Below are positions 42,491 through 62,024 of a stretch of 64,000 nt of DNA, one piece after another. Below the pieces are notes generated by a model that searched no databases, was not told where the DNA came from, and saw nothing but the letters and a program-made list of their open reading frames with translations. Both the position numbers and the translations under genes were made by a program. Location: assembly GCA_943788005.1 (NCBI GenBank), contig CALSOP010000002.1, forward strand, positions 898,573 to 962,572. Reading direction: 5' to 3'. The stretch comes from an uncultured Gammaproteobacteria bacterium (lineage in GTDB: Bacteria; Pseudomonadota; Gammaproteobacteria; Eutrophobiales; Eutrophobiaceae). How positions within the stretch are numbered: position 1 is the stretch's first letter; the number at the start of each line of letters is the position of its first letter.

Positions 42491-43909
42491 ATGAGCGTAG
42501 ATGCTACCTCTGTATACACCCGATTACCACGTTGCTGACATTTCTTTGGCTGATTGGGGCCATAAAGAAATTCGTATCGCTGAAACTGAAATGCCTGGCT
42601 CTGGTCTCTATCCGAGAAGAATACAAAACGGAAAAGCCTTTAAAAGGTGCACGCATTGCAGGTTCATTGCATATGACCATTCAAACCGCAGTGCTGATAG
42701 AGACACTTATCGCATTGGGCGCGGAAGTTCGATGGGTATCTTGCAACATTTTTTCTACACAAGATCATGCCGCAGCAGCAATCGCGGATCAGAATATTCC
42801 CGTTTTTGCCTATAAGGGCGAAACGCTTGAAGAGTACTGGGATTATACCCACCGCATCATGACTTGGTCGGACGGTGGTTCTCCGAACATGATCCTTGAC
42901 GACGGTGGCGATGCGACCATGTTATTGATCCTTGGGACCAAAGCTGAAAGCGACTTATCTGTTCTCGACAACCCTGGCTCTGAAGAAGAGACATTTTTAT
43001 TTGCCGCTATAAAAGCTAAACTAGCTACAGACAGTACCTTTTATTCTCGGACTTTGGCCTGTATTCAAGGTGTAACCGAAGAGACTACAACTGGCGTACA
43101 ACGTCTGTATCAAATGCAAAAGAAAGGTGAATTACCTTTTCCTGCGATCAATGTTAATGACTCGGTTACTAAATCCAAATTTGATAATTTGTACGGATGT
43201 CGTGAATCTCTGGTTGATGGGATCAAGCGTGCAACCGATGTAATGATTGCTGGTAAGGTCGCATTGGTCTTGGGTTATGGTGATGTTGGTAAGGGAAGTG
43301 CACAGTCCCTACGTGGCTTGGGTGCGACGGTCTGGATTACTGAAATTGATCCAATATGCGCCTTACAGGCTTCGATGGAAGGGTATCGTGTTGTCAGATT
43401 AGAAGATGTTGTTGACAAATCGATATCTTTGTTACAACCACCGGAAACTTCAACATTATTCGCCATGACAATTTAGTCAAAATGAAAGATCAGGCTATTG
43501 TTTGTAACATCGGTCATTTTGATAATGAAATTGATATTGCCAGTCTCGAGAAGTACGAATGGGAAGAGATTAAGCCGCAGGTTGATCATGTCATATTCCC
43601 TGATGGGAAACGTATTATACTACTTGCTAAAGGGCGTTTGGTTAATCTGGGTTGTGCTACAGGGCACCCGAGTTTTGTTATGTCTAATTCATTCACCAAC
43701 CAGGTGTTAGCGCAAATTGAGCTTGTTCGTTCGTGGCGAAAACTATGGCAAAGATGTTTATGTTTTACCTAAACACCTTGATGAAAAGGTCGCGAGGCTT
43801 CATCTCGATAGAATTGGTGCAAAATTGACAACGCTAACTCAAGAACAAGCAGACTATATTAGCGTACCGGTTGAATGGGCCTTATAAACCTGAACATTAT
43901 CGTTACTAA
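42491..43909 (+). pseudogene. ahcY: S-adenosylhomocysteine hydrolase, frame broken about five times
   Basis: Starts [10 protein letters not shown] after TAGGAGA. Conceptual joining of frames gives a full-length AhcY ending PYKPEHYRY. The frames meet near 42520 (extra C), 42600 (extra T), 43420 (one base missing), 43728 (extra G) and 43876 (extra T). Between the breaks the residues are fully conserved: NAD-binding [39 protein letters not shown] and [16 protein letters not shown]. No stop has arisen by substitution. Either the sequence has errors here or the gene decayed very recently. The product would hydrolyse SAH to adenosine and homocysteine. Confidence 0.85.
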
Positions 43910-44853: not shown

Positions 44854-45043
44854 CGCTGGTTTCAATACTATTTTACCTTCTGTTCTTTTAGGTTTTTTTA
44901 ATCTCTCCTTTTTGCCAAGGACGCTTATTTGTACTTGCTGTAAGCTCTTTTTGGCTGTATGTTTGACTGTGAAAGTATTTAGGAATCAATGCTTTGTCGT
45001 CGACAGTTAAAAAATAAATAGATTAGCAAATACAGAAAAGCCT

Positions 45044-46435
45044 TTGCTCTTATTCGTGGATGATGATTCCATCATTGTCGATGCACTTTCTATCGTTCTG
45101 GAAAAAGATTTTGACCTAATTACCGCGGAGTCTCGTCAACAAGTAAAGGCGCAGCTTCAAGACCTATCCGTCAAGCCTTCACTGGCTCTGGTTGATCTTG
45201 GTTTGCCTCCAAAGCCACATTCACCAGAGGAAGGATTTAAACTGATTGAAGAGTTGATGGCGGTTAATGACAGTTTTAAAATTCTTGTTCTATCAGGGCA
45301 AGATGAAGAAGTGAATATTCACCACGCATTAACTTTGGGCGCGGTGGATTTTATCCCAAAGCCATGTGACATGTCTTTATTAAAGGCTAGGCTGGGACAC
45401 CAAATGATGATGTTGCAAGCAGAGTCTTCAGAGAAAGAATCTCCCGTTAGCGACACTAAACTTTTAGGTGACAGCGCGGCGCTTAAAACATTACGTGATT
45501 TAATCAACCAATTTGCAGATACGCCTTTCCCGGTTCTTGTGGAAGGTGAGTCAGGTACAGGCAAGGAGTTAGTTGCTGAAGAGCTGCATAATTCAAGTAG
45601 TCGTAAAAATGCCCCTTTCATGACAATCAATTGTGCTGCTTTCACTCCTGAATTATTAGAGGCCCAATTGTTTGGTCATGCAAAAGGCGCGTTCACTGGT
45701 GCCGCTTCTGAACGAGCAGGTTTTTTTGAGGATGCCGGTGAAGGCACACTATTTCTGGACGAAATAGGTGAGTTGCCTCTGTCTTTACAATCGAAGTTAT
45801 TAAGAGTTCTCGAAAATGGTGAGTTTTATCGCATTGGTGAGACTAAATCGCGCATATCCAAGGCAAGAATAGTAGCGGCAACAAATCGTGATTTAAAAGA
45901 AGAAGTCAGGTCGGGTGGTTTTCGCCAAGATCTTTATCATCGCCTCTGTGTCTTGACGATTCATGTGCCTGCATTAAGAGAGCGTGAGCAAGATGTACTT
46001 AATCTGATGGAATATTTCAGGAAGATGTATGCTGCCGGTAACCCAGCTGTTGAGTTAGATGAAACAGCAAGTGAATTATTGAAGAAGTATTCTTTTCCGG
46101 GAAATATCAGAGAATTACGTAATATAGCAATTCGCTTATCGGCTAAGTATTCAGGCAAAACAATATCTGCAAAATCTTTGAAAGATGAACTGGAAACGGA
46201 CTTTAATCAAAATGTGGATGACTTGAATAACGGAGATGATTTAATTGCTCAGGGCTTAGATGATAAAAATTTCCATCTGGATGAACAAATCTCAGTTTGG
46301 GAGCGAAAATATATTAATCATGCTTTATCGAAATGCAATGGAAATTTGAGCAAAGCGGCGCGTTTACTAGGTATAAATCGTACTACACTGTACAGTAGAA
46401 TTCAGCGATTAAACATAAAACTAGACACGGATTGA
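45044..46435 (+). CDS. prsR: PrsR-like sigma-54-dependent response regulator
   Basis: At least 463 residues. A receiver domain (LLFVDDDS, phosphoacceptor in ALVDLGLP near 52, LSGQ, PKPCD) is followed by an AAA+ domain with Walker A GESGTGKE near 167, GAFTGA near 215 for sigma-54 contact, FLDEIGELP, and a Fis-type helix-turn-helix at the end ([20 protein letters not shown]). The layout matches the PEP-CTERM-box regulator family. The only start at 45044 is TTG and falls about 7 residues late; upstream codons (ANTEKPL) look coding but no ATG or GTG is in frame and no ribosome-binding site is clear. Confidence 0.85.
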
Positions 46436-46451: not shown

Positions 46452-46997
46452 ATGTATTACGATTATTTTAATCTAAAGCAACCACCCTTCAAGATAACTC
46501 CGGACACGAGTTTGTTTTTTCCCGGCGGTGATCGTGGTGCTATCCTGGATGCTTTGATTTATGCCATTGTTAGTGGGGAAGGCATAGTTAAGTTGGTAGG
46601 TGAAGTGGGCAGTGGTAAGACGACGCTATGCCGAATGCTGGAAAAGGAATTACCGAAAAATATTGAGATAGTGTATCTGGCAAATCCGAGCTTATCGCCA
46701 GACAATATATTGCACGCAATCGCTTTTGAGCTTCATCTAAAAGTACGCCCTGATGACTCCCGCTTAAAGGTAATGAACTCATTGCAAAATTACCTTCTTG
46801 AACGTCATGCGGAAAATAAACAAATCGTTGTCTTTGTAGAAGAAGCGCAAAGTATGCCGATTGCTACTCTTGAAGAGATACGTTTACTCAGCAATCTTGA
46901 AACGGCGCAAAATAAACTTTTGCAGATCGTCATCTTTGGACAGCCCGAACTAGACGTAATGATTGTACCCCGTCAGCACCATGTGGACCAACTAGCC
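46452..46997 (+). pseudogene. ExeA/MshM-type AAA ATPase, 3' end lost at IS insertion
   Basis: The first roughly 167 residues are a good ExeA-like AAA domain: MYYDYFNLKQPPFKITPD, Walker A GEVGSGKTT at 50-58, Walker B VVFVEEAQ near 126-133, sensor-like LSNLET, ending at IFGQPELDV. After that the frame runs into unrelated residues and stops at the IS edge. Intact relatives are 260-500 residues, some with peptidoglycan-binding tails, and act in type II secretion, MSHA pilus or exosortase loci. The remainder is not found beyond the IS, so an IS-associated deletion is likely. Confidence 0.8.
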
Positions 46998-47046
46998 TGA
47001 TTGTCTAAGAGATAGTTTTAGTTCATCGTTAACCCAAGAGGAAACG

Positions 47047-47409
47047 ATGATGACAAGTAAAAGAAGTGTAGAACATACTGTGCGCGATATTCGTCGACGC
47101 ACCCGTAAAAAATATTCAGCAGAAGAAAAAATTCGTATCGTACTTGAAGGCTTACGCGGCGAAGAAAGCATCGCTGAGCTATGTCGCAAGGAAGGACTAA
47201 ACCCAAATGTTTACTACCGTTGGTCGAAAGACTTTCTGGAGGCAGGTAAGAAACGTTTATCAGGCGATATCGTACGTGAAGCGACCTCAGATGAAGTCAA
47301 AGAACTGCGTGCTGAAACATCTGCGCTGAAAGAAACCTTAGGCGAAGTAGTCATGGAGAATCGGCTGCTTAAAAAAAGCGTGCTCGGGGATGGGGAGGAC
47401 GATATATGA
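47047..47409 (+). CDS. IS3-family transposase OrfA
   Basis: 120 residues. A helix-turn-helix (KYSAEEKIRIVLEGLRGEESIAELCRKEG, NPNVYYRWSKDFL) is followed by a leucine-zipper-like coiled coil (ELRAETSALKETLGEVVMENRLL). It binds the IS ends. Its stop overlaps the OrfB start (ATGA). Two adjacent ATGs are possible starts. Confidence 0.92.
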   Translation: MMTSKRSVEHTVRDIRRRTRKKYSAEEKIRIVLEGLRGEESIAELCRKEGLNPNVYYRWSKDFLEAGKKRLSGDIVREATSDEVKELRAETSALKETLGEVVMENRLLKKSVLGDGEDDI

Positions 47410-48404
47410 GGTACTTAGCATCGGATAAAGTCGAGATTATTCAACTGGTACAGAACTCAGATCTGTCGGTTCGACAAACGCTGACTCGGCTGGACATTCA
47501 TAAGTCCACTTTTTACAACTGGCTCAAACGTTATGAAGAGAATGGCGTTGATGGCTTGGAAGACAAGAAGCCGATTCCCCATGCGGTATGGAATAAAATC
47601 ACCGAAGACCACTGTGAAGCCGTTATTGAGTTAGCCTTAGAGAAGCCTGATTTGTCTCCACGAGAGTTAGCCGTAAATTACACTGACAACAAGGCTTACT
47701 TCGTCTCAGAATCCACGGTGTACAGGCTGCTGAAAGAACAAGACTTAATTGCCAGTCCGGCCTATATCCTGATGGAGGCCAGTGATAAGTTTCAACAGCC
47801 CACTACGCGCGTGAATGAGATGTGGCAAACGGATTTTACCTATTTCAAGATTATCGGTTGGGGTTGGTATTACTTATCCACGGTATTAGATGATTACTCA
47901 CGTTACATTATTGCCTGGCGTTTATGTACGGGCATGAGTAGCCGTGATGTCTCTGATACGCTGGATGACGCCTTACGCTTTACGGGACTTGATACAGTAA
48001 AGGTAAATCATAAACCGCGTTTACTCAGTGACAATGGCCCGTGTTATATCTCCGGTGAATTAGCCGATTACCTTGAAGAAAACGGTATGACGCACACTCG
48101 AGGTCGACCTTATCATCCACAAACACAAGGCAAGATAGAGCGCTGGCATCGTTCAATGAAGAATCAGATATTACTTCACCACTATTATTTCCCCGGGGAA
48201 CTGGAGGAACAGTTGCAGCGTTTTGTGAGTTATTACAACCATGAGCGTTATCATGAATCACTTGATAACCTGACACCGGCTGATGTCTTTTATGGGCGTG
48301 GCGAAGAAATACTAAGTCAACGAGAGCTAATCAAACAAAACACGTTAGCGATGAGACGACAAATGCATTACGATAAACAACAAGTGAAGCACATAACCTA
48401 TTGA
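47406..48404 (+). CDS. IS3-family transposase OrfB (integrase catalytic domain)
   Basis: 332 residues. An N-terminal helix-turn-helix (SVRQTLTRLDIHKSTFYNWLKRYEE) precedes the DDE core: aspartate in QTDFTYF near 143, aspartate in SDNGPCY near 208, glutamate in GKIERWH 36 residues later, giving DD(35)E. The frame is intact, so the element may be active if OrfA and ends are competent. Confidence 0.93.
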   Translation: MRYLASDKVEIIQLVQNSDLSVRQTLTRLDIHKSTFYNWLKRYEENGVDGLEDKKPIPHAVWNKITEDHCEAVIELALEKPDLSPRELAVNYTDNKAYFVSESTVYRLLKEQDLIASPAYILMEASDKFQQPTTRVNEMWQTDFTYFKIIGWGWYYLSTVLDDYSRYIIAWRLCTGMSSRDVSDTLDDALRFTGLDTVKVNHKPRLLSDNGPCYISGELADYLEENGMTHTRGRPYHPQTQGKIERWHRSMKNQILLHHYYFPGELEEQLQRFVSYYNHERYHESLDNLTPADVFYGRGEEILSQRELIKQNTLAMRRQMHYDKQQVKHITY

Positions 48405-48425
48405 TGAACTAATGTGTCTCTTAAA

Positions 48426-50133
48426 TCAAACCGCTACCTGTCCAAAAGGTTTTGACGACGTACAGTTTGATGATAGTTCAAAACAAACCCTGCCAGCTTG
48501 ATTAATAATTAATTTTAAACTGTAGCCAAACATTTCGGCATGTTTGTTGGCTTGGTAAAGGCCAATGCCTAAGCCATTGTCAGATGAGACTGGGTTGTTG
48601 AGCAACTGGCTGGAAACACTGTCCGGAATCATGCTTCCTGAATCACAAACGGTGACGATAATCACATCGTGGTTACAGGCTAAGGTGATAGTGGTTTCAA
48701 TATCCGGTTCGTCAAATTGCTTTGTTTGAATGTTTTCTAGTAGGTTATCGACAACACTATCAAATAGATCAACTGGAACGGTTGGATCGCCATGAATGTC
48801 AGCTTGAAACTGCATCTTGTTGTGTGTATTTCTCTTTTGTAGATCGTCCCACCAATCCTTAAGATAAATTTCTTTGTCATCCTGAACTTGTGGTGTTTGT
48901 AATTTATCCAGAGCTAATTGCAGGCGTTGTGTTAAATGAGGTAGCTGCTTTTTTAATACTTGCTGAGATACCAGCATGTTAGAACCATCTGTATCATGAG
49001 TGACTATGCTTGTGATTGCTTGCAGTGATTGTAATAAGTTTTTTATGTCATGAGTTATACGTGCGCCAGTCTGGTAAATTGCCTTTAGGTGTGCTTGTCT
49101 GGTTAGCTCAAGTTCGCGTTGTTTATTTTGGTAAAAATTATGCAGTAACTTAATTAATAGGTGACTGTGTAATTTAAGTGAAACGCCGGCGGGGGCTATA
49201 GGTATAGATGTATACTTTGAAGTCTTTGTGTTCAATTTCAACTTCGTTGTTTGTCGCTTCACCAATGTCACTTATGGTTTCATTAAGTTTCCATTTAACA
49301 CCAGAAATCCATAAAAATTGAACTAGTTTCTCCATTGCTTTTTGTAGGAAATCCTCTGGCGAGAGATCCTGTTCGTTAATTTCAGATAAATCAGATAACC
49401 ACTCTTCAAAGGGTGTTCCTATATTAAGCATATAGTTTGACCATAATTGAGTAATGCCGCTGAATCGCGATTGCGAGGTTAATAACCAACTAATACATAT
49501 TATGAAGCCACCTATAGCAATAGAAGTCCCAGCCAATGAAACAAAATAAGAAGTGTCACTTAAAAACATGTTGAGCAAACTTCCTAATGCTACAAGACTG
49601 GTTAGCATCGAAGCTGTTATTGCATGAATAAAATCTACTATCTGAATAGTGTGTTGCGATTTATCAGTAGGAAGAAATAGAATTAAGATAGGTAGAATTG
49701 GAATTGCCATTTCAAATAGATAAGCTTTTTCAATTTTAATATCTGCCAATTCTGGAACACAACCAAATAACAGCTCTAAAACAAGGAATCCAATCGCAAT
49801 AATATATATTGTGCTTTCGCTTCTATTTAAGGTGACGCGGCCGCTTATAAATCCAATTAACAGAATTAACCAGGCAAATAGCAACCAAAAGTTTAACCAA
49901 AAGGTGATCGATAAAGTAAAAACAATAAATAACACGGTGTTTCTAATGCTGAGCTTTTCATCTCCGCGCCATACCGGTTGCCATAATAAGAAAAGCCCAA
50001 GGTGGCTGAGCATAAGAGAGCGTGACATTAAGCTACCAAAATCAAACCAGATAGAGAGATGTAGCAGCTCTAACATCATCACGAGGATGATGAGTTCTTT
50101 TCTCATGAAAATTTTATTTAGAAATGTAGACAC
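48426..50133 (-). pseudogene. prsK: PrsK-like sensor histidine kinase, one frame break
   Basis: The 5' part (49174-50133) has about eight membrane helices and a cytoplasmic GAF-like stretch. The 3' part (48426-49271) holds the phosphoacceptor segment ARITHDIKNLLQSLQAI and an HATPase domain with VDNLLENI and GLGIGLYQANKHAEMFG. The frames join at a run of five G near 49191-49195; removing one restores YTYSPAGVSLKLHS. Membrane array plus HDxKN H-box match the PEP-CTERM histidine kinase family, usual partner of the PrsR-type regulator at 45044. Its terminal stop comes from the IS edge. Confidence 0.8.
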
Positions 50134-50203: not shown

Positions 50204-50977
50204 ATGAATCACAATCTATTATGTACTATAGCGAAGTTCTCCATATGGGAGGCAATCAGGGATAAATTTCTTCTGTTTATTTTTGGTGGAGTTGCCGGCC
50301 TATTTTTTGCGGCTTTGTTTATTGGTGAACTTGCGATAACAGAGGGCGCGATGACACAAGCGGCACTGCTTGCTTCTGCCTTACGTTTATTTTCGGTATT
50401 CACAATAGGCTTATTTGTTATAACGAGCATGATTCGGGAGTTTAATGATAAAGGTTTCGAATTAATCTTGTCTCACCCTGTGCCTCGTTCATCCTATTAT
50501 TTTGGTAAGTTTATCGGATTTTCGGGTATATCTTTAATTGTTGTTTTAATGATTGCTGCATGCTTATGTTTGTTTGCCCCGGTTAATATGGTGCTTTTGT
50601 GGTCGTTTTCGTTGTTTTGTGAACTTCTAATAATCATTGCTTTAAGCTTGTTATGCCTATTTTCATTCAGCAGCATTACTATTTCTTTTAGTGTTGTTAT
50701 CGGTTTTTATATTTTGTCACGATCAATTGAGGCCATTCTATTAATTAGTAATTCCCCAGCTCTTGCGCTTGGCTCAATTAGCCATAAATTCATGAGTGGA
50801 TTATTAGACGTTATTGCTTATGTAATTCCTGATCTATATATGTTTACTCAAACTGAATGGCTTATTTATGAAGTTGATGTATTTGGCGATGTGGGTTTTG
50901 TCTTGGGCCAAACAATAATTTATATCGTTTTTATTTCATCGATAGCGCTATTTGATTTATACAGAAAGGAATTATAA
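50204..50977 (+). CDS. ABC-2 type permease
   Basis: 257 residues with about six membrane helices. The N-terminal AKFSIWEAIRDKFLLFIF and the loop MIREFNDKGFELILSHPVPRSSYYFGKFIG are typical of ABC-2 permeases. No ATPase gene adjoins it; the likely partner is the ATP-binding protein at 54301, with a cyclase and pilin gene in between. Its start is divergent from the PrsK-like gene. Confidence 0.82.
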   Translation: MNHNLLCTIAKFSIWEAIRDKFLLFIFGGVAGLFFAALFIGELAITEGAMTQAALLASALRLFSVFTIGLFVITSMIREFNDKGFELILSHPVPRSSYYFGKFIGFSGISLIVVLMIAACLCLFAPVNMVLLWSFSLFCELLIIIALSLLCLFSFSSITISFSVVIGFYILSRSIEAILLISNSPALALGSISHKFMSGLLDVIAYVIPDLYMFTQTEWLIYEVDVFGDVGFVLGQTIIYIVFISSIALFDLYRKEL

Positions 50978-50990
50978 GAATATCTTTTCG

Positions 50991-51733
50991 ATGAAACTTT
51001 TCGTAAAAAATACACGAAATATATCTTTTGTCCCTGCCAGCGTATGGCCTGTCCTATTATTAAGTTTATTTCTGCAATGTTATTGGCATTGGTCATTCAC
51101 TAATCTCGAAATTAAACGAGATGATTTGCCCGTCCCGCCAAAGGTGTCACTGGTAAGACTTGTTAGTCTTGATGATTTGGTTCCAGCAGCAAAGGGGGTG
51201 ATGTTGTGGCTACAAGCGTTTGATAATCAGCCCGGGATTAGTATTCCATTAAGGGGAATTGAATTATCAGAGAGTAAGTGAATGGCTAGATTTAATTTTA
51301 GATCTTGATAATAAAAATCCAGTATCCGCTTTTAGCTGCGATTAGGTTTTATGCTGAAGTTTCAGATGAAAAAAAGCAAAGATTGATGATAGATTATATA
51401 AGTAAAAAATTCATTGAAAACCCAAGTGAACGTTGGCAGTTTATGGCGCATGCGGTTTATATCGCAAAACATAGAATTAAAGATCAGCAATTAGCTTTGG
51501 AATGTGCAAAACTAATTCGGCAATATGCTACTGGAGACAATGTCCCGTATTGGGCAAAACAAATGGAAATTTTTGTTCTGGAAGATATGGGGGAACTAGA
51601 AAGCGCAAAGGTACTAATAGGCGGTTTACTTGAAAGTGGTGAGTTGAAAGATGCACATCAAGTAAATTTTTTAACTCAACGCTTAACAGAAATCGAAGAG
51701 CGCCAGAATCAAGAACGGGAACCACTGCAATAA
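50991..51733 (+). pseudogene. Single-pass helical-repeat protein, two frame breaks
   Basis: Starts MKLFVKNTRNISFVPASVW with a membrane segment near 15-33 (VWPVLLLSLFLQCYWHW), then an outward domain of TPR-like helices. Frames change near 51260-51266 and 51320-51325. Bridging text reads YQRVSEWLDLILDLDNKNP before YPLLAAIRFYAEVSD, strongly coding-like. The joined protein would be about 245 residues. It lies 13 bases after the permease gene and shares its transcription. I do not know a named family. Confidence 0.7.
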
Positions 51734-51735
51734 AA

Positions 51736-52983
51736 TCATAAGCCCATAATTTTTTTAACCATGGCTTTATAATATTTGTCATTCTTATCTTTTTCATAAA
51801 GTTCTTTAAACAATCTACATGCATTCTTATCCTTTCCTGAGTAATAGAGCGCCATCGCTTCTGTGTGGATAATAAGTTTCTCTTTTAATGCGGCATCGAC
51901 TTCATTGTCATAACATAATGGTTGATAAATCCGAGTGAGTTGGTGTTTGCCGCGTACCCGAACCTGGTCAAGTTCTCGGCAAGTGATTCCTTTTAACTGC
52001 TTATGCGTGTGTTCACTTATTAATATAGGAACACGATAGGTGCGTGTCAGAGATTCAATGCGAGAGGCAAGGTTAACCGCATCGCCAATAGCAGTATAAG
52101 TCATGCGATATTTTGAGCCCATATTGCCAACGTTGGCTCTGCCGGTATTAATGCCAATGCCCATGGAAAGTCGAGGCCAGCCATGACTGATAAATTTTTC
52201 TGCAAGCGTTTGTATGGCTTGACTCATTTCAAGCGCAGCCTCAACCGAACGTTGTGCGTGTTCAGCTTGCTCTGTCGGCGCATTCCAGAATGCCATTATT
52301 GCATCACCAATATATTTATCTATGGTTCCGCCATGTTTAAATAAGATCTCAGTCATAGAGGTAAAATATTCGTTTAGTAACTTATTCAATTGTTTTGGAT
52401 TTAGTTCTTCAGAAATATTGGTAAAGTTTTGCAAGTCACAAAAGAAAACAGTTAATATTTTTGATTCCCCTTCTGTAGAAAGCCCATTGGGTAAGCGACT
52501 TAATTCACTGACTAATTGCGGTGGGATATATTGACCAAAGGTTTCTATTAGCCGTTGTTTGGATTGTATTTCCATGAAGTAACTGACCAATACGTTTGTC
52601 ATGTAGATAACCAGGATAGTTAATACACAATATTCTATTGGTATTAATCCAACATTGGGGCTTGAATAGCCTATTGCCGCTGATATAAGAATTGTTACAA
52701 AAGTAAGCAAAAATGCCTTTACGGGAGATAATAGCGGCAGCATGCTCGACAATATTAGACCGGCTATAAGCAAAAATATGAATTCTTTTGTCTGCATTAG
52801 CTTGCCTAATGCAAGGTTATAGTTGCCTGATTGATTTAGGAGTTTGCTGCTAATATTGATAATAGGGTCCTGAGCAATGGTAATTTCTATAAGACCAATT
52901 GCGTCTGAAAGGAAGATCATAAATACACTGAAGATGACAGATATCTTTATTAGAACATGTTTCGTTATTTCAGGTATCTTCAT
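51736..52983 (-). CDS. Membrane-bound class III adenylate/guanylate cyclase
   Basis: 415 residues. The N-terminal 150 carry a signal-anchor helix and three further helices (about 70-90, 95-112, 118-135) without a full CHASE2 domain. The cyclase core shows metal aspartates in FFCDLQNFTNIS (near 184) and DKYIGDAIMAFWNAP (near 228), GIGINTGRANVGNMGS and AIGDAVNLASRIE. A short C-terminal helical tail follows. It converges on the preceding gene (2-base gap). It would make a cyclic nucleotide that could link surface or pilus state to gene control. Confidence 0.88.
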   Translation of the reverse strand: MKIPEITKHVLIKISVIFSVFMIFLSDAIGLIEITIAQDPIINISSKLLNQSGNYNLALGKLMQTKEFIFLLIAGLILSSMLPLLSPVKAFLLTFVTILISAAIGYSSPNVGLIPIEYCVLTILVIYMTNVLVSYFMEIQSKQRLIETFGQYIPPQLVSELSRLPNGLSTEGESKILTVFFCDLQNFTNISEELNPKQLNKLLNEYFTSMTEILFKHGGTIDKYIGDAIMAFWNAPTEQAEHAQRSVEAALEMSQAIQTLAEKFISHGWPRLSMGIGINTGRANVGNMGSKYRMTYTAIGDAVNLASRIESLTRTYRVPILISEHTHKQLKGITCRELDQVRVRGKHQLTRIYQPLCYDNEVDAALKEKLIIHTEAMALYYSGKDKNACRLFKELYEKDKNDKYYKAMVKKIMGL

Positions 52984-53142
52984 TTGATTTATGGGTTGTT
53001 TTTATGATTAATGATATTTTGCTATTGATTTAAGTAAACATGAGTTTGCATGGAAAAGATCTAATCTTATCCAGTCACACATGTTATTACCAAATTAATG
53101 ATGGCCTATAGTAAACGAGCAAATGAAGATCGTCGAATTCTC

Positions 53143-53174
53143 AACAGTATTGATGATATATCAACAATACTGTT
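53143..53174. promoter_or_regulatory. Palindrome upstream of the pilin sigma-54 promoter, candidate activator site
   Basis: AACAGTATTG and CAATACTGTT, perfect 10-base arms around a 12-base spacer, end about 55 bases before the -24 element. This is a reasonable distance for an enhancer bound by a sigma-54 activator such as the PrsR-like protein 7 kb away. The rest of 52984-53290 has no gene. Confidence 0.55.
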
Positions 53175-53229
53175 AATGTTTTACATGAGATTATTATTAA
53201 ATTTATAATAAAAACAATAGGATATAGTG

Positions 53230-53247
53230 TTGGCATGATCTCTGCAT
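53230..53247 (+). promoter_or_regulatory. Sigma-54 promoter for the prepilin gene
   Basis: TTGGCATGATCTCTGCAT fits the -24/-12 consensus (TGGCAC-N5-TTGCA) with the invariant GG at 53232-53233 and GC at 53244-53245, exactly ten bases apart. Transcription would begin near 53257, leaving about a 35-base leader before the start codon. Confidence 0.75.
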
Positions 53248-53290
53248 TATGATTATGAAAAGCAGACATAGCTTAAACGGAGAAGAAGTA

Positions 53291-54079
53291 ATGAATATTA
53301 ATAAACAGAAAGGTTTTACATTAGTCGAAATCGCAATCGTCCTGGTCATTATTGGATTATTACTCGGCGGCATCCTTAAAGGTCAGGAATTAATTAATAG
53401 CGCACGTGTGCGAAATTTGGCAGATCAGAATTCAGGTATACAGGCAGCGTACTATGGTTTCATAGATCGTTATCGCCAAGTGCCAGGCGATTTTATTGCT
53501 GCTAATGCAAGTCAGGCGATGGGTGTCACGATTAACTTGCCAGTTGCAGCTTCAACTACAGATGGTAACGGCCAATTAGATAATACGCTTGAAGAAGCCG
53601 CAGCCGTTTGGGAGCAATTGGCGAAATCTAACTTTTTGGGTGGTGGTTTTACCCCAGCTACAGCTATCCCAGCAAGTGAAGGTGCTTATACTGCCAGTCA
53701 AGTCGGACCTTTGAATGCGTTTAACGGAGCATTGATTTTGACACGAAATGCGGGTTATACCGGAACTGCCTCTATCCGTTTGAATCTACACATGGGCCGA
53801 AATGTGCCGGTTACGATTGCCCGAGAGTTGGATGTTAAGGTTGATGATGGCCTACCGAACACCGGTGTGTTAAGACTTACCAATACAGCTGGTGCTGCAG
53901 GCGGTGGAACAACCTTTGATGCAATAGAGTTTTTGCCATCGTTTGCAACTTGTGCGACAAACTCTACCGCAAATGCTCCGGCCAACGCAGCAGGTGCTAA
54001 TGTCATGCCAACCAATGCTACTGATATCTATGATATTTTCGATGATTTTCAAGATTGTCCACAGGTTTTTGTATATTAG
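53291..54079 (+). CDS. Type IV prepilin-like protein
   Basis: 262 residues from MNINKQKG, with GGAGAAGAAG just upstream. The prepilin peptidase site is KG|FTLVEIAIVLVIIGLLLGGILKGQE, with Glu5 of the mature protein and a long hydrophobic helix. The mature part is large, Ala/Asn/Thr-rich, and has two C-terminal cysteines (SFATCATNS and DFQDCPQVF) that could form a disulfide. It carries its own sigma-54 promoter and terminator, so it is monocistronic. A pseudopilin or minor surface filament is expected; the exact system is unknown. Confidence 0.87.
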   Translation: MNINKQKGFTLVEIAIVLVIIGLLLGGILKGQELINSARVRNLADQNSGIQAAYYGFIDRYRQVPGDFIAANASQAMGVTINLPVAASTTDGNGQLDNTLEEAAAVWEQLAKSNFLGGGFTPATAIPASEGAYTASQVGPLNAFNGALILTRNAGYTGTASIRLNLHMGRNVPVTIARELDVKVDDGLPNTGVLRLTNTAGAAGGGTTFDAIEFLPSFATCATNSTANAPANAAGANVMPTNATDIYDIFDDFQDCPQVFVY

Positions 54080-54104
54080 ATCAAATACTAAACTCGACTT
54101 AATT

Positions 54105-54130
54105 AATGCCCGCGCTTTGCGGGCATTTTT
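54105..54130 (+). terminator. Rho-independent terminator after the prepilin gene
   Basis: AATGCCCGC / GCGGGCATT forms a 9-base stem with a 5-base loop followed by a T-run (TTTTTATTT). Confidence 0.93.
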
Positions 54131-54300
54131 ATTTACAGTGATGTGATGTTTATAGGTTTTGCACGACTGCATGGATGCAGGAGGTACTTTAGGCAAATCA
54201 TAAGCATCTGCATGCCGGTAGTATTACGGGTTCATTAATGGGCGAGAGAATGAGGCGCAAGCGACAAAGTAGGGCATGAACAATAGCGACGGTAAGATGA

Positions 54301-55026
54301 ATGACTAAAATTGGACTTAAAGTTGAACAAGTAAATCAACGCTATGCTAGCAATGCCGTCCTGGATAACATCAACCTAACCGTCTACGAAGGTGAATATG
54401 TTGGGCTTGTTGGTGTTAATGGTGCCGGTAAGACGACATTAATTAAAGCGATATTAGATTTTGTTTCTATAGATTCTGGAAATATTGAGATCTTTGGAAA
54501 ATCGCATAGAGAAACATCATCGCGTGAATCACTCTCTTTCTTACCAGAAAAATTTATTCCTCCCTATTATTTAACGGGAAAAGATTTTCTTTCTTATATG
54601 GCCGAATTAAATCAGGTGGAATTAGAGGGCGCTGCTATAGAAGAATTGTTTCAGGTTCTTGATCTGGATATTACCGCATTAAAAAAATCAGTACGACAGT
54701 ATTCAAAAGGGATGTCACAAAAACTGGGACTCGCATCTTGTTTTTTGAGTCAAAGACCGATGTTGCTTTTTGATGAACCGATGAGCGGTCTTGATCCAAA
54801 AGCGCGTGCGTATCTGAAACGACATCTGGTAAGTTTAAAAGAAACAGGAAAGACGCTTTTTTTTAGCACGCATTTATTAGCAGACGTGGAAAGTATTTGT
54901 GATCGGATAATTGTTTTGCACGGTGGTAAAATATGCTTTAACGGCTCACCTTCGCAATGTTGTGAAGAATTTAATGCAAACGATCTTGAAAATGCGTATC
55001 TAAACTGTATTGGTGCTAATGTATGA
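54301..55026 (+). CDS. ABC transporter ATP-binding protein
   Basis: 241 residues. Walker A GVNGAGKTT near 40, signature YSKGMSQKLGLAS near 140, Walker B LLFDEPMSGLDP, and the switch histidine in FSTHLLADVE. It belongs to the ABC-2 export group and is the best partner for the orphan permease at 50204, although the two genes are separated by a cyclase and a pilin gene. A weak GG-N10-GC motif at 54192-54205 is noted but not claimed as promoter. Confidence 0.87.
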   Translation: MTKIGLKVEQVNQRYASNAVLDNINLTVYEGEYVGLVGVNGAGKTTLIKAILDFVSIDSGNIEIFGKSHRETSSRESLSFLPEKFIPPYYLTGKDFLSYMAELNQVELEGAAIEELFQVLDLDITALKKSVRQYSKGMSQKLGLASCFLSQRPMLLFDEPMSGLDPKARAYLKRHLVSLKETGKTLFFSTHLLADVESICDRIIVLHGGKICFNGSPSQCCEEFNANDLENAYLNCIGANV

Positions 55027-55068
55027 GTACCACGTAGAAAACTAATGTATTTAGAATATACTTAGAAT

Positions 55069-55775
55069 ATGAAAATTAAAATGCCCATAATGAGACTCTT
55101 TGTCGTGTTATTGCTCGTTTTTAGCCAGGGCATCTCTGCGCGAATGTATCAGTGGCTTGACGCAGATACAGGGTCTACTCAATTATCCGGAAAGCCGCCA
55201 ATGTGGTATAGAAGCGCTTCACCTGGGCCGCGAGTTTTTGTCTTTGATAATGGGCGTCTCATGGATGACACGGCCATTGAAGTTGATGACGAAGTGCGCG
55301 AACAATTAAGACGAAGGGCATTTATTTTAGCGGAAGAGGATCAGCAAAAAGCTAAAGATAAACTTGCCAAATCCTTAGAAATGCAACAAAAATTTGTCAA
55401 AGATAAACCGAAAAAAGTTGAATTGGTAGATACCGAAGATTCACAGCAGCAGATCTCAAGTCTGTCGCTGACCTTGAAGAGTTTAATCAAGTACTAGTGG
55501 ACTATATTGCTGCTGGACATTTTGGTCTATACGAAAGAATCGCTGAGGGCAAGGAACGCCGAAAACCAGTATCTAAATTGGCAGTTCAGATATATCCGCG
55601 AATAGAACAAGTTACACAAATTGCTCTGGCCTTTGATGAAAAATACAATCCTGAAAACAATGAACATGGGCTCGACCATTTCCCAGAAGATCTGTCCGCA
55701 CTTTGCGAAGAATTAGTTACGCGTATTGAACTTGAAGACCAATTGATCCAGTTGCTGCTAGAAGCCAAGTCTTGA
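55069..55775 (+). pseudogene. DUF4124-type secreted coiled-coil protein, one frame break
   Basis: The first frame has a signal peptide (LFVVLLLVFSQGISA), a DUF4124-like MYQWLDADTGSTQLSGKPP and an acidic/basic coiled coil. It reads into TGA-free but unlike sequence after EDSQ and stops at 55497. The other frame contains AADLKSVADLEEFNQVLVD directly upstream of YIAAGHFGLYERIAEG and runs to 55775. One base change near 55440-55455 would give a roughly 235-residue protein. Alternatively the second frame starts at the overlapping GTG (TAGTG). Function unknown. Confidence 0.65.
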
Positions 55776-60636: not shown

Positions 60637-62024
60637 ATGAGCTCAAAAAATACAGAAAAACCCTGGGGCGGGCGATTCACGGCCCCAACAGATAAATTTG
60701 TTGAACAATTCACCGAATCTGTCTCTTATGACCAGCGATTGGCCCATTATGACATCATGGGTTCAATAGCTCACGTGCGTATGCTGGGTATGGTTGGCGT
60801 TATCTCTGGAAAGGAAAGTGCTCAGATTATCCGCGGCTTGAAGAAGATTGAGAAAGATATCAAAGGCGGCGCGTTTCAATGGTTAACTACCCTTGAAGAC
60901 GTTCATATGAACATTGAGACGGCTTTGGTAGCGAATATCGGCGATGTGGGTAAAAAGTTACATACTGGACGCTCAAGAAACGATCAAGTTGCGACCGATA
61001 TCCGTTTGTATTGTCGTGATGAGATTGATCTGATTTGCGATCAAATTAATGCGGTATTGAATGCATTATTAACCTTAGCCGATGATCATATTGATACTAT
61101 TATGCCCGGTTTTACTCACCTGCAATCTGCACAGCCGGTCACCTTTGGGCATCATTTGCTGGCTTGGGCCGAAATGCTATTGCGAGATCGATCGCGTCTA
61201 CATGATTGTCGAAAAAGACTGAATTTACTGCCCCTTGGATCTGCGGCACTCGCTGGAACGAGCTATCCAATTGATCGGAATATGGTTGCCAAAGAGTTGG
61301 CTTTGATGGCATCACACAAAACTCACTGGACTCAGTCAGTGACCGTGATTTTGCAATAGAGCTTACTGCGGCTGCGAGTTTGATCATGATGCATTTATCC
61401 CGGTTTTCAGAAGAGCTGGTAATTTGGATGTCTCAGGCCAGTGGTTTTATCGATCTAGGTGATGCCTGGTGTACGGGTTCATCTATTATGCCACAAAAGA
61501 AGAACCCCGATATTCCCGAGTTAGTCAGAGGTAAGACGGGTCGAGTTTATGGTGACTTGATGGCTTTACTTACCTTGATGAAGGCTCAACCGCTCGCTTA
61601 TAACCGTGATAATCAAGAGGACAAAGAAAGTTTGTTCGATGCGATTGATACGGTAAAGATGTCTCTAATTGCCTATGCTGGTTTGATTCCGACAATTAAA
61701 GTAAACCATGAAACGATGTATAGGGCAGCGGCAGCGGGTTTTGCTACGGCAACGGATCTCGCAGATTATTTAGTGGTCAAAGGTCTGCCCTTCAGAGATG
61801 CGCATGAAGTCGTAGGTAAAACCGTTCAGTTTGCAATTCAGCATGATAAGGAATTGTCCGGGTTAACGCTGCCTGAACTGCAACAATTCAGTAAGGTAAT
61901 CAAAGATGATGTCTATACGGTATTAGAACTAGAAGGATCGGTGTCAGCCCGAAACCATGTCGGTGGTACGGCACCAAGACAAGTTAAGGCGGCGATTAGG
62001 CGTCTTAGAAAAAAACTAAATTAA
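60637..62024 (+). pseudogene. argH: Argininosuccinate lyase, one frame break
   Basis: The 5' part (60637-61359) reads normally: [51 protein letters not shown]. Near 61299-61302 one base appears missing in GAGTTGGCTTTGATGG. Restoring a G continues [21 protein letters not shown], then the catalytic loop [20 protein letters not shown], to [15 protein letters not shown]. Corrected length about 462 residues is normal. It cleaves argininosuccinate to arginine and fumarate. Sequence error is a serious alternative to decay. Confidence 0.87.

Follow-up and report, generated by a model that had tools for sequence, protein, structure and literature searches.

An ABC transporter, TPR protein and pilin gene unit conserved in a clade of MSH-like type IV filaments

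Genes of the window and the cluster of a sister genome

The window analysed here is a 64,000-nucleotide stretch of a contig from an uncultured gammaproteobacterium of the family Eutrophobiaceae, and the features of interest within it are collected in Table 1. A split ABC exporter had been proposed for this region in a first-pass annotation, and the pair proved to be real: the permease and ATPase genes lie 3.3 kb apart, the permease scores over the Pfam cut-offs of both ABC-2 type membrane domain models (PF12698 and PF12679), and the ATPase over that of PF00005, with its Walker A, signature, Walker B, and H-loop motifs all intact as read from the sequence. The class III cyclase lacking a CHASE2 domain, described earlier between these two genes, is likewise present, and both metal-binding aspartates and the Lys-Asp and Asn-Arg substrate motifs can be read in its sequence.

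Table 1. Features of the window, with positions, strands, and the evidence on which each assignment rests
Feature	Position	Strand	Evidence
prsR-like sigma-54 response regulator (NtrC/PrsR type)	45011..46435	+	TIGR02915, TIGR01818; match in sister genome G005
mshM/ExeA-like ATPase, ends after codon 175 of 487	46452..46976	+	Comparison with G005
IS3-type insertion sequence	about 47000..48425	+	Transposase ORFs 47047-47409 and 47406-48404; end sequences
prsK-like sensor kinase, frameshift near 49195	48426..50133	-	Two pieces compared with intact kinase
ABC-2 type permease, 257 aa	50204..50977	+	PF12698, PF12679; alignment of 28 relatives
Bitopic TPR-like protein, 246 aa if intact	50992..51733	+	Alignments with relatives; AF2 model
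Membrane class III adenylate/guanylate cyclase, optional neighbour	51736..52983	-	PF00211, 101 bits; catalytic motifs
Sigma-54 promoter TGGCATGATCTCTGCA	53231..53246	+	44 nt 5' of pilin start
Prepilin, 262 aa, probable major pilin	53291..54079	+	PF07963 and TIGR02532 over cut-off
ABC transporter ATPase, 241 aa	54301..55026	+	PF00005, 88 bits; motifs
DUF4124-type protein joined out of frame to C-terminal part of rsd	55069..55775	+	Residues of relatives

An intact counterpart is found in G005, a MAG of Thiotrichaceae UBA973, whose permease is 89% identical to that of the window and in which a complete cluster for a type IV filament lies between the same flanking genes. The gene order there is metF, prsR, mshM (487 aa, ExeA-like), mshL secretin, mshN-like TPR, mshE, mshG, mshI-like, mshJ-like, mshK-like, a 1098-aa pilin-like protein, a 258-aa minor pilin, prsK (opposite strand), permease, TPR, cyclase (opposite strand), pilin, ABC ATPase, DUF4124, Ser/Thr kinase (opposite strand), and rsd, where the names mshI, mshJ, mshK and that of the large pilin-like protein reflect gene order and length, family models giving no match for them. 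The sister MshL obtains 226.8 bits with TIGR02519, just under the cut-off of 250.2, its next best model being GspD at 150, and MshL copies beside the unit exceed the same cut-off in several loci (e.g., G059:C112, G352:C47, and G141:C3). The MshE of G005 carries a c-di-GMP-binding N-terminal domain (NF053729, 46.2 bits; cut-off, 38), and MshM, MshG, and the MshN-like TPR share one locus in relatives. The prsR gene of the window matches the one heading the intact cluster at 88%. Judged by this comparison of gene content and order, the window genes make up the 3' portion of a cluster for an MSHA-like type IV filament.

The prepilin had been credited with a sigma-54 promoter of its own, and the promoter part of that claim holds, since a canonical -24/-12 site (GG-N10-GC) is present, but the gene start had to be moved. 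The candidate start at 53249 was rejected in view of the promoter site at 53231-53246; because this site sits just 5' of the ATG at 53291, the latter was taken as the true start, giving the N-terminus MNINKQKG/FTLVE. The N-terminal 60 residues are near-invariant among relatives, and the structure model of the pilin is poor (pLDDT 42). When 150 nt upstream of each gene were scanned, with a background expectation of about 1%, a strict sigma-54 core was found 5' of 35 of the 62 unit pilins, versus 0-2 for each other gene family of the cluster. A sigma-54 response regulator and a sensor kinase are encoded within the same cluster as the pilin. PilS/PilR control pilA in T4aP, and the present arrangement resembles that system in its sigma-54 pilin promoter and in its regulator/kinase pair within the cluster, so that a pilin regulon made up of the PrsK/PrsR-like pair and sigma-54 can be predicted. 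Four loci (L161, L166, L168, and L169) have two pilin genes 3' of the TPR gene, with a sigma-54 site on the first only.

The membrane-anchored TPR-like protein of the earlier annotation corresponds to a gene that is present here, but what is one 246-aa gene in relatives is found as two ORFs in the window. The family has no match in Pfam or NCBIfam and thus constitutes one for which neither collection has a model. An AF2 model of the G005 protein (locus L035; pLDDT 81) consists of a transmembrane helix at residues 16-37 and a TPR-like helical-repeat solenoid, which should be periplasmic by the positive-inside rule. A fold search with this model yielded nothing more specific than TPR or helical-repeat proteins in general. 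No match, PilW (Foldseek rank 44) and YfgM (Z of 9.9) included, rose above the noise level set for helical repeats, so no family was given to the protein.

State of the locus in the window genome

The PrsK/PrsR-like and ExeA-type genes reported to adjoin the unit are indeed there, but prsK is frameshifted and the ExeA-like gene is truncated. The two prsK pieces match residues 1-314 and 317-558 of an intact 563-aa kinase, and the truncated gene matches the first 175 residues of the intact G005 protein (487 aa) at 96%. Between them sits the IS3-type element, at a place where the sisters have ~14 kb of genes for assembling a type IV filament; relative to G005, the replaced stretch starts at mshM codon 175 and reaches as far as the final codons of prsK. 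DNA alignment with the sister loci L035 and L036 places two 1-nt insertions in the TPR gene, each in a homopolymer run. At the other end of the unit, the DUF4124 protein continues to residue 119 and is followed by Rsd residues 48-156, as compared with relatives, and the deletion of about 2.2 kb has removed the Ser/Thr protein kinase gene kept between the two in those relatives; no IS lies at this junction. A search of the 2.41-Mb assembly of the window genome (G000) found no MshL at 1e-30 and no MshE closer than 37%. That the lost genes had moved to a different contig of this genome was considered and rejected: the two best T2SSE loci are 36-37% paralogues and do not represent the lost mshE.

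It seems that the IS element has cost this genome the pilus-building half of the cluster, and because the assembly genes are missing from the assembly and several of the remaining genes are broken, the unit here is probably a remnant in decay. Alternatively, errors of assembly or of reads might account for both the 14-kb loss and the frameshifts, and the cluster of the living organism would then be intact. The IS element has about 40 full-length, near-identical copies in this genome, which makes it a classic source of false joins, both frameshifts of the TPR gene fall within homopolymer runs, the housekeeping genes ahcY and argH also appear split, and the assembly is 85% complete. Against such errors stand the lack of the assembly genes anywhere in the 2.41-Mb assembly and the separate DUF4124-rsd deletion with its IS-free junction, and we regard an intact cluster in the organism as somewhat unlikely, an estimate that concerns the state of this locus and is separate from those given below for the function of the unit.

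The split housekeeping genes, ahcY (42501-43772) and argH (60637-62024), are each divided into two or more ORFs in a frameshift-like manner. The ~40 IS copies in a 2.4-Mb genome with many split genes point to a recent burst of this element and to genome decay, although the split genes might also stem from read errors.

Conservation of the unit and its relation to MSH pili

Neighbourhoods of the gene families were compared in sets of 21 at the family level, 40 class-wide, and 20 from a phylum-wide sample. The permease lies directly 5' of the TPR gene in 68 of 69 neighbourhoods, the remaining one beginning at a contig end. Where at least 5 kb of downstream sequence is available, the pilin follows in 48 of 54 loci, the ATPase in 42, and the cyclase in 23; MSH-like assembly genes are found upstream in 37 of the 48 loci with at least 10 kb of sequence on that side. 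Among 369 genomes of the class, the TPR family occurs in 53, all of which have the permease (53/53), and the permease is found without the TPR protein in one genome only (TPR in 53 of 54 permease genomes). MshL, counted at an E-value threshold, is enriched in genomes with the unit (about 42/53, compared with 96/316 of the others). In the phylum-wide sample, the unit occurs in further families outside the class, mostly with filament genes again. By the adjacency counts, the arrangement is far beyond chance. The families therefore do not scatter, and a tie of the ATPase to another permease elsewhere, either of which would have spoken against the grouping first proposed, did not occur; permease, ATPase, helical protein, and prepilin belong together as one conserved unit. 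These neighbourhoods show, at the level of gene order, the linkage of permease, TPR, pilin, and ATPase with filament genes. The ABC-TPR-pilin unit of this clade of MSH-like type IV filaments is real and conserved, and it is apparently undescribed: nothing relevant on an ABC transporter in MSHA-type loci was met in the literature searched, outside which most subscription papers lie, and the term 'ABC transporter' is absent from a survey of the type IV filament superfamily.

The system has much in common with the MSHA pilus (MSH, proposed T4eP) of Vibrio and relatives, namely an MshL-like secretin, an MshM/ExeA-like ATPase, an MshN-like TPR, an MshE with a c-di-GMP domain, the platform protein MshG, and a large pilin-like protein, all at a single locus. 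It differs from canonical MSH by the added permease, TPR, and ABC ATPase genes and by the sigma-54 kinase/regulator pair, and its gene order is mshM-L-N-E-G, compared with mshL-M-N-E-G in the canonical MSH loci examined here. The canonical locus also occurs in several genomes that carry the unit (G016, G059, G180, G202, G204, G252, and G406). In a quick IQ-TREE maximum likelihood tree with long outgroup branches, 48 ABC-linked MshE copies fall together (SH-aLRT 91), and the 14 from canonical MSH loci make up a clade of their own (100); a locus of G128 without the unit falls within the ABC-linked group. Because its MshE lies outside the canonical MSH clade in this quick tree, the system was filed as MSH-like rather than as MSH.

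Possible roles of the transporter

The permease and TPR genes lie 5', and the ATPase gene 3', of the one pilin with a sigma-54 promoter, and the simplest reading of genes so placed around a single sigma-54 pilin is a dedicated machine for that pilin. We consider it probable, from gene content and arrangement, that permease, TPR protein, and ATPase constitute one dedicated ABC transporter complex of the MSHA-like filament that acts on the main sigma-54 pilin. The permease and ATPase would form an inner-membrane machine, the TPR protein, with its N-terminal membrane helix and periplasmic helical repeat, might serve as a periplasmic adaptor or chaperone, and the transporter could help to export, extract or stabilise the main pilin before MshE and MshG polymerise it. 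The cyclase, where present, may add an optional cAMP-type signal.

The one studied precedent met for this inferred function comes from Myxococcus xanthus, in which an ABC ATPase, a permease, and a third protein, together PilG-PilH-PilI, are encoded beside pilA with the sigma-54 regulators PilS/PilR. The likeness is one of gene layout: both systems place an ABC ATPase, a permease, and a third protein in a type IV pilus cluster that also contains a sigma-54-controlled pilin and an NtrC-type regulator, whereas PilGHI is linked to a T4aP system and the present unit to an MSH-like one. PilGHI was reported to be indispensable for moving pilin across the inner membrane (PMC3724824). What an ABC transporter contributes to type IV pilus biogenesis has been a question since PilGHI was studied in 1998, in part because the pilGHI genes were described as exclusive to the Myxococcus cluster (PMC6060248). 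In other systems, Sec inserts the prepilins and the assembly motor extracts them (PMC10191384), and well-studied type IV filaments assemble without an ABC transporter, which counts against the handling of pilin by one. Also against the transporter reading, the ATPase, alone or together with the pilin, is missing within reach in 12 of the 54 loci, and 11 of the 48 have no msh genes nearby, in some cases only because the stretch compared was short.

Permeases of this ABC-2 type are often transporters of glycans, lipids, and drugs. The transporter may accordingly export or flip a substrate other than pilin, for instance a glycan-lipid, lipid or small peptide found on or alongside the pilus, the linkage to the pilin then being one of co-regulation. 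The best NCBIfam matches of the ATPase, the DrrA and GldA models, would fit such a substrate, as would a helical-repeat protein without a specific fold match. No glycosyltransferase or lipid-modifying gene was found, however, among all genes of the window's unit and of the fully listed G005 cluster, the other loci having been covered for the profiled families only, and the constant partner of the transporter genes is the pilin; a non-pilin substrate is therefore regarded as unlikely. Still less probable is a complex that moves nothing and acts, like FtsEX, as a mechanical or regulatory gate of the filament machine tied to the PrsK/PrsR and cyclase signals. The small permease, the periplasmic solenoid, the adjoining sensor kinase, and the cyclase of some genomes would suit a gate, but the cyclase is absent from 31 of the 54 loci, the divergent prsK is missing in some, and the permease matches ABC-2 rather than FtsX-type families.

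The region had originally been read as a possible surface-sensing device of PEP-CTERM bacteria, free-standing and with a cyclic nucleotide as its output. All genes of the proposed device are present, and the idea of an envelope system survives in that the genes belong to a filament-related system with a sigma-54 pilin promoter; they form, however, the downstream half of an MSH-like cluster for filament assembly, and cyclic-nucleotide output is no core property, the cyclase being optional. Similarity to XrtA/PEP-CTERM regulators is found at the family level for the kinase, the regulator, and the ExeA-like ATPase, with the differences that the equivalog cut-offs are unreached, an exosortase is lacking from this genome, and pilus genes are co-located. 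The PrsR-like regulator obtains 353 bits with TIGR02915 (cut-off, 502.6) and 350 with TIGR01818, the PrsK-like kinase 48 bits with TIGR02916 (cut-off, 300), the gene scored being broken, and the ExeA-like ATPase of the window is below the cut-off of TIGR03015; with the XrtA-ATPase model, even the intact sister ATPase obtains 214.5 bits under a cut-off of 324.5. The exosortase model PF09721 has no match in G000 or in G006, a genome of the same genus that is about 100% complete. Genomes with the unit have an exosortase somewhat more often than the others do (29/53, or 55%, compared with 97/316, or 31%), but it went undetected in the other 24 of the 53, about half, so that the supposed PEP-CTERM setting is not what these genomes share and was rejected as a requirement. 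The neighbourhood data largely refute the free-standing device, which we hold to be highly improbable. As a correction, PrsK/PrsR/ExeA-like genes outside PEP-CTERM loci can flag pilus clusters.

Returning to the dedicated pilin transporter, we propose a broader view tentatively, as a real possibility of lower standing than the complex itself: the clade may represent a type IV filament subtype in its own right that is widespread in Pseudomonadota and occurs beside canonical MSH pili in the same cells, with an ABC transporter and its periplasmic helical adaptor as core. The main pilin would then be handled by two motors, the ABC ATPase for entry or extraction and MshE for polymerisation. The complete cluster is kept in dozens of related bacteria and the unit clade in dozens of sampled families, which offers many new hosts, some of them probably tractable, for studying how an ABC transporter may assist pilin export or extraction.

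Two genomes deserve mention for the layout of their loci. In G406, an ABC-linked filament locus (L249) and a canonical MSH locus (L199) lie on one contig within about 15 kb, and in G252 the two kinds of locus (L176 and L248) appear to adjoin across a contig break, which suggests tandem filament loci. In some loci outside the class (L217, L218, and L225-L228), the MshE-like ATPase ORF is about 900 aa long, ~330 residues above the usual length.
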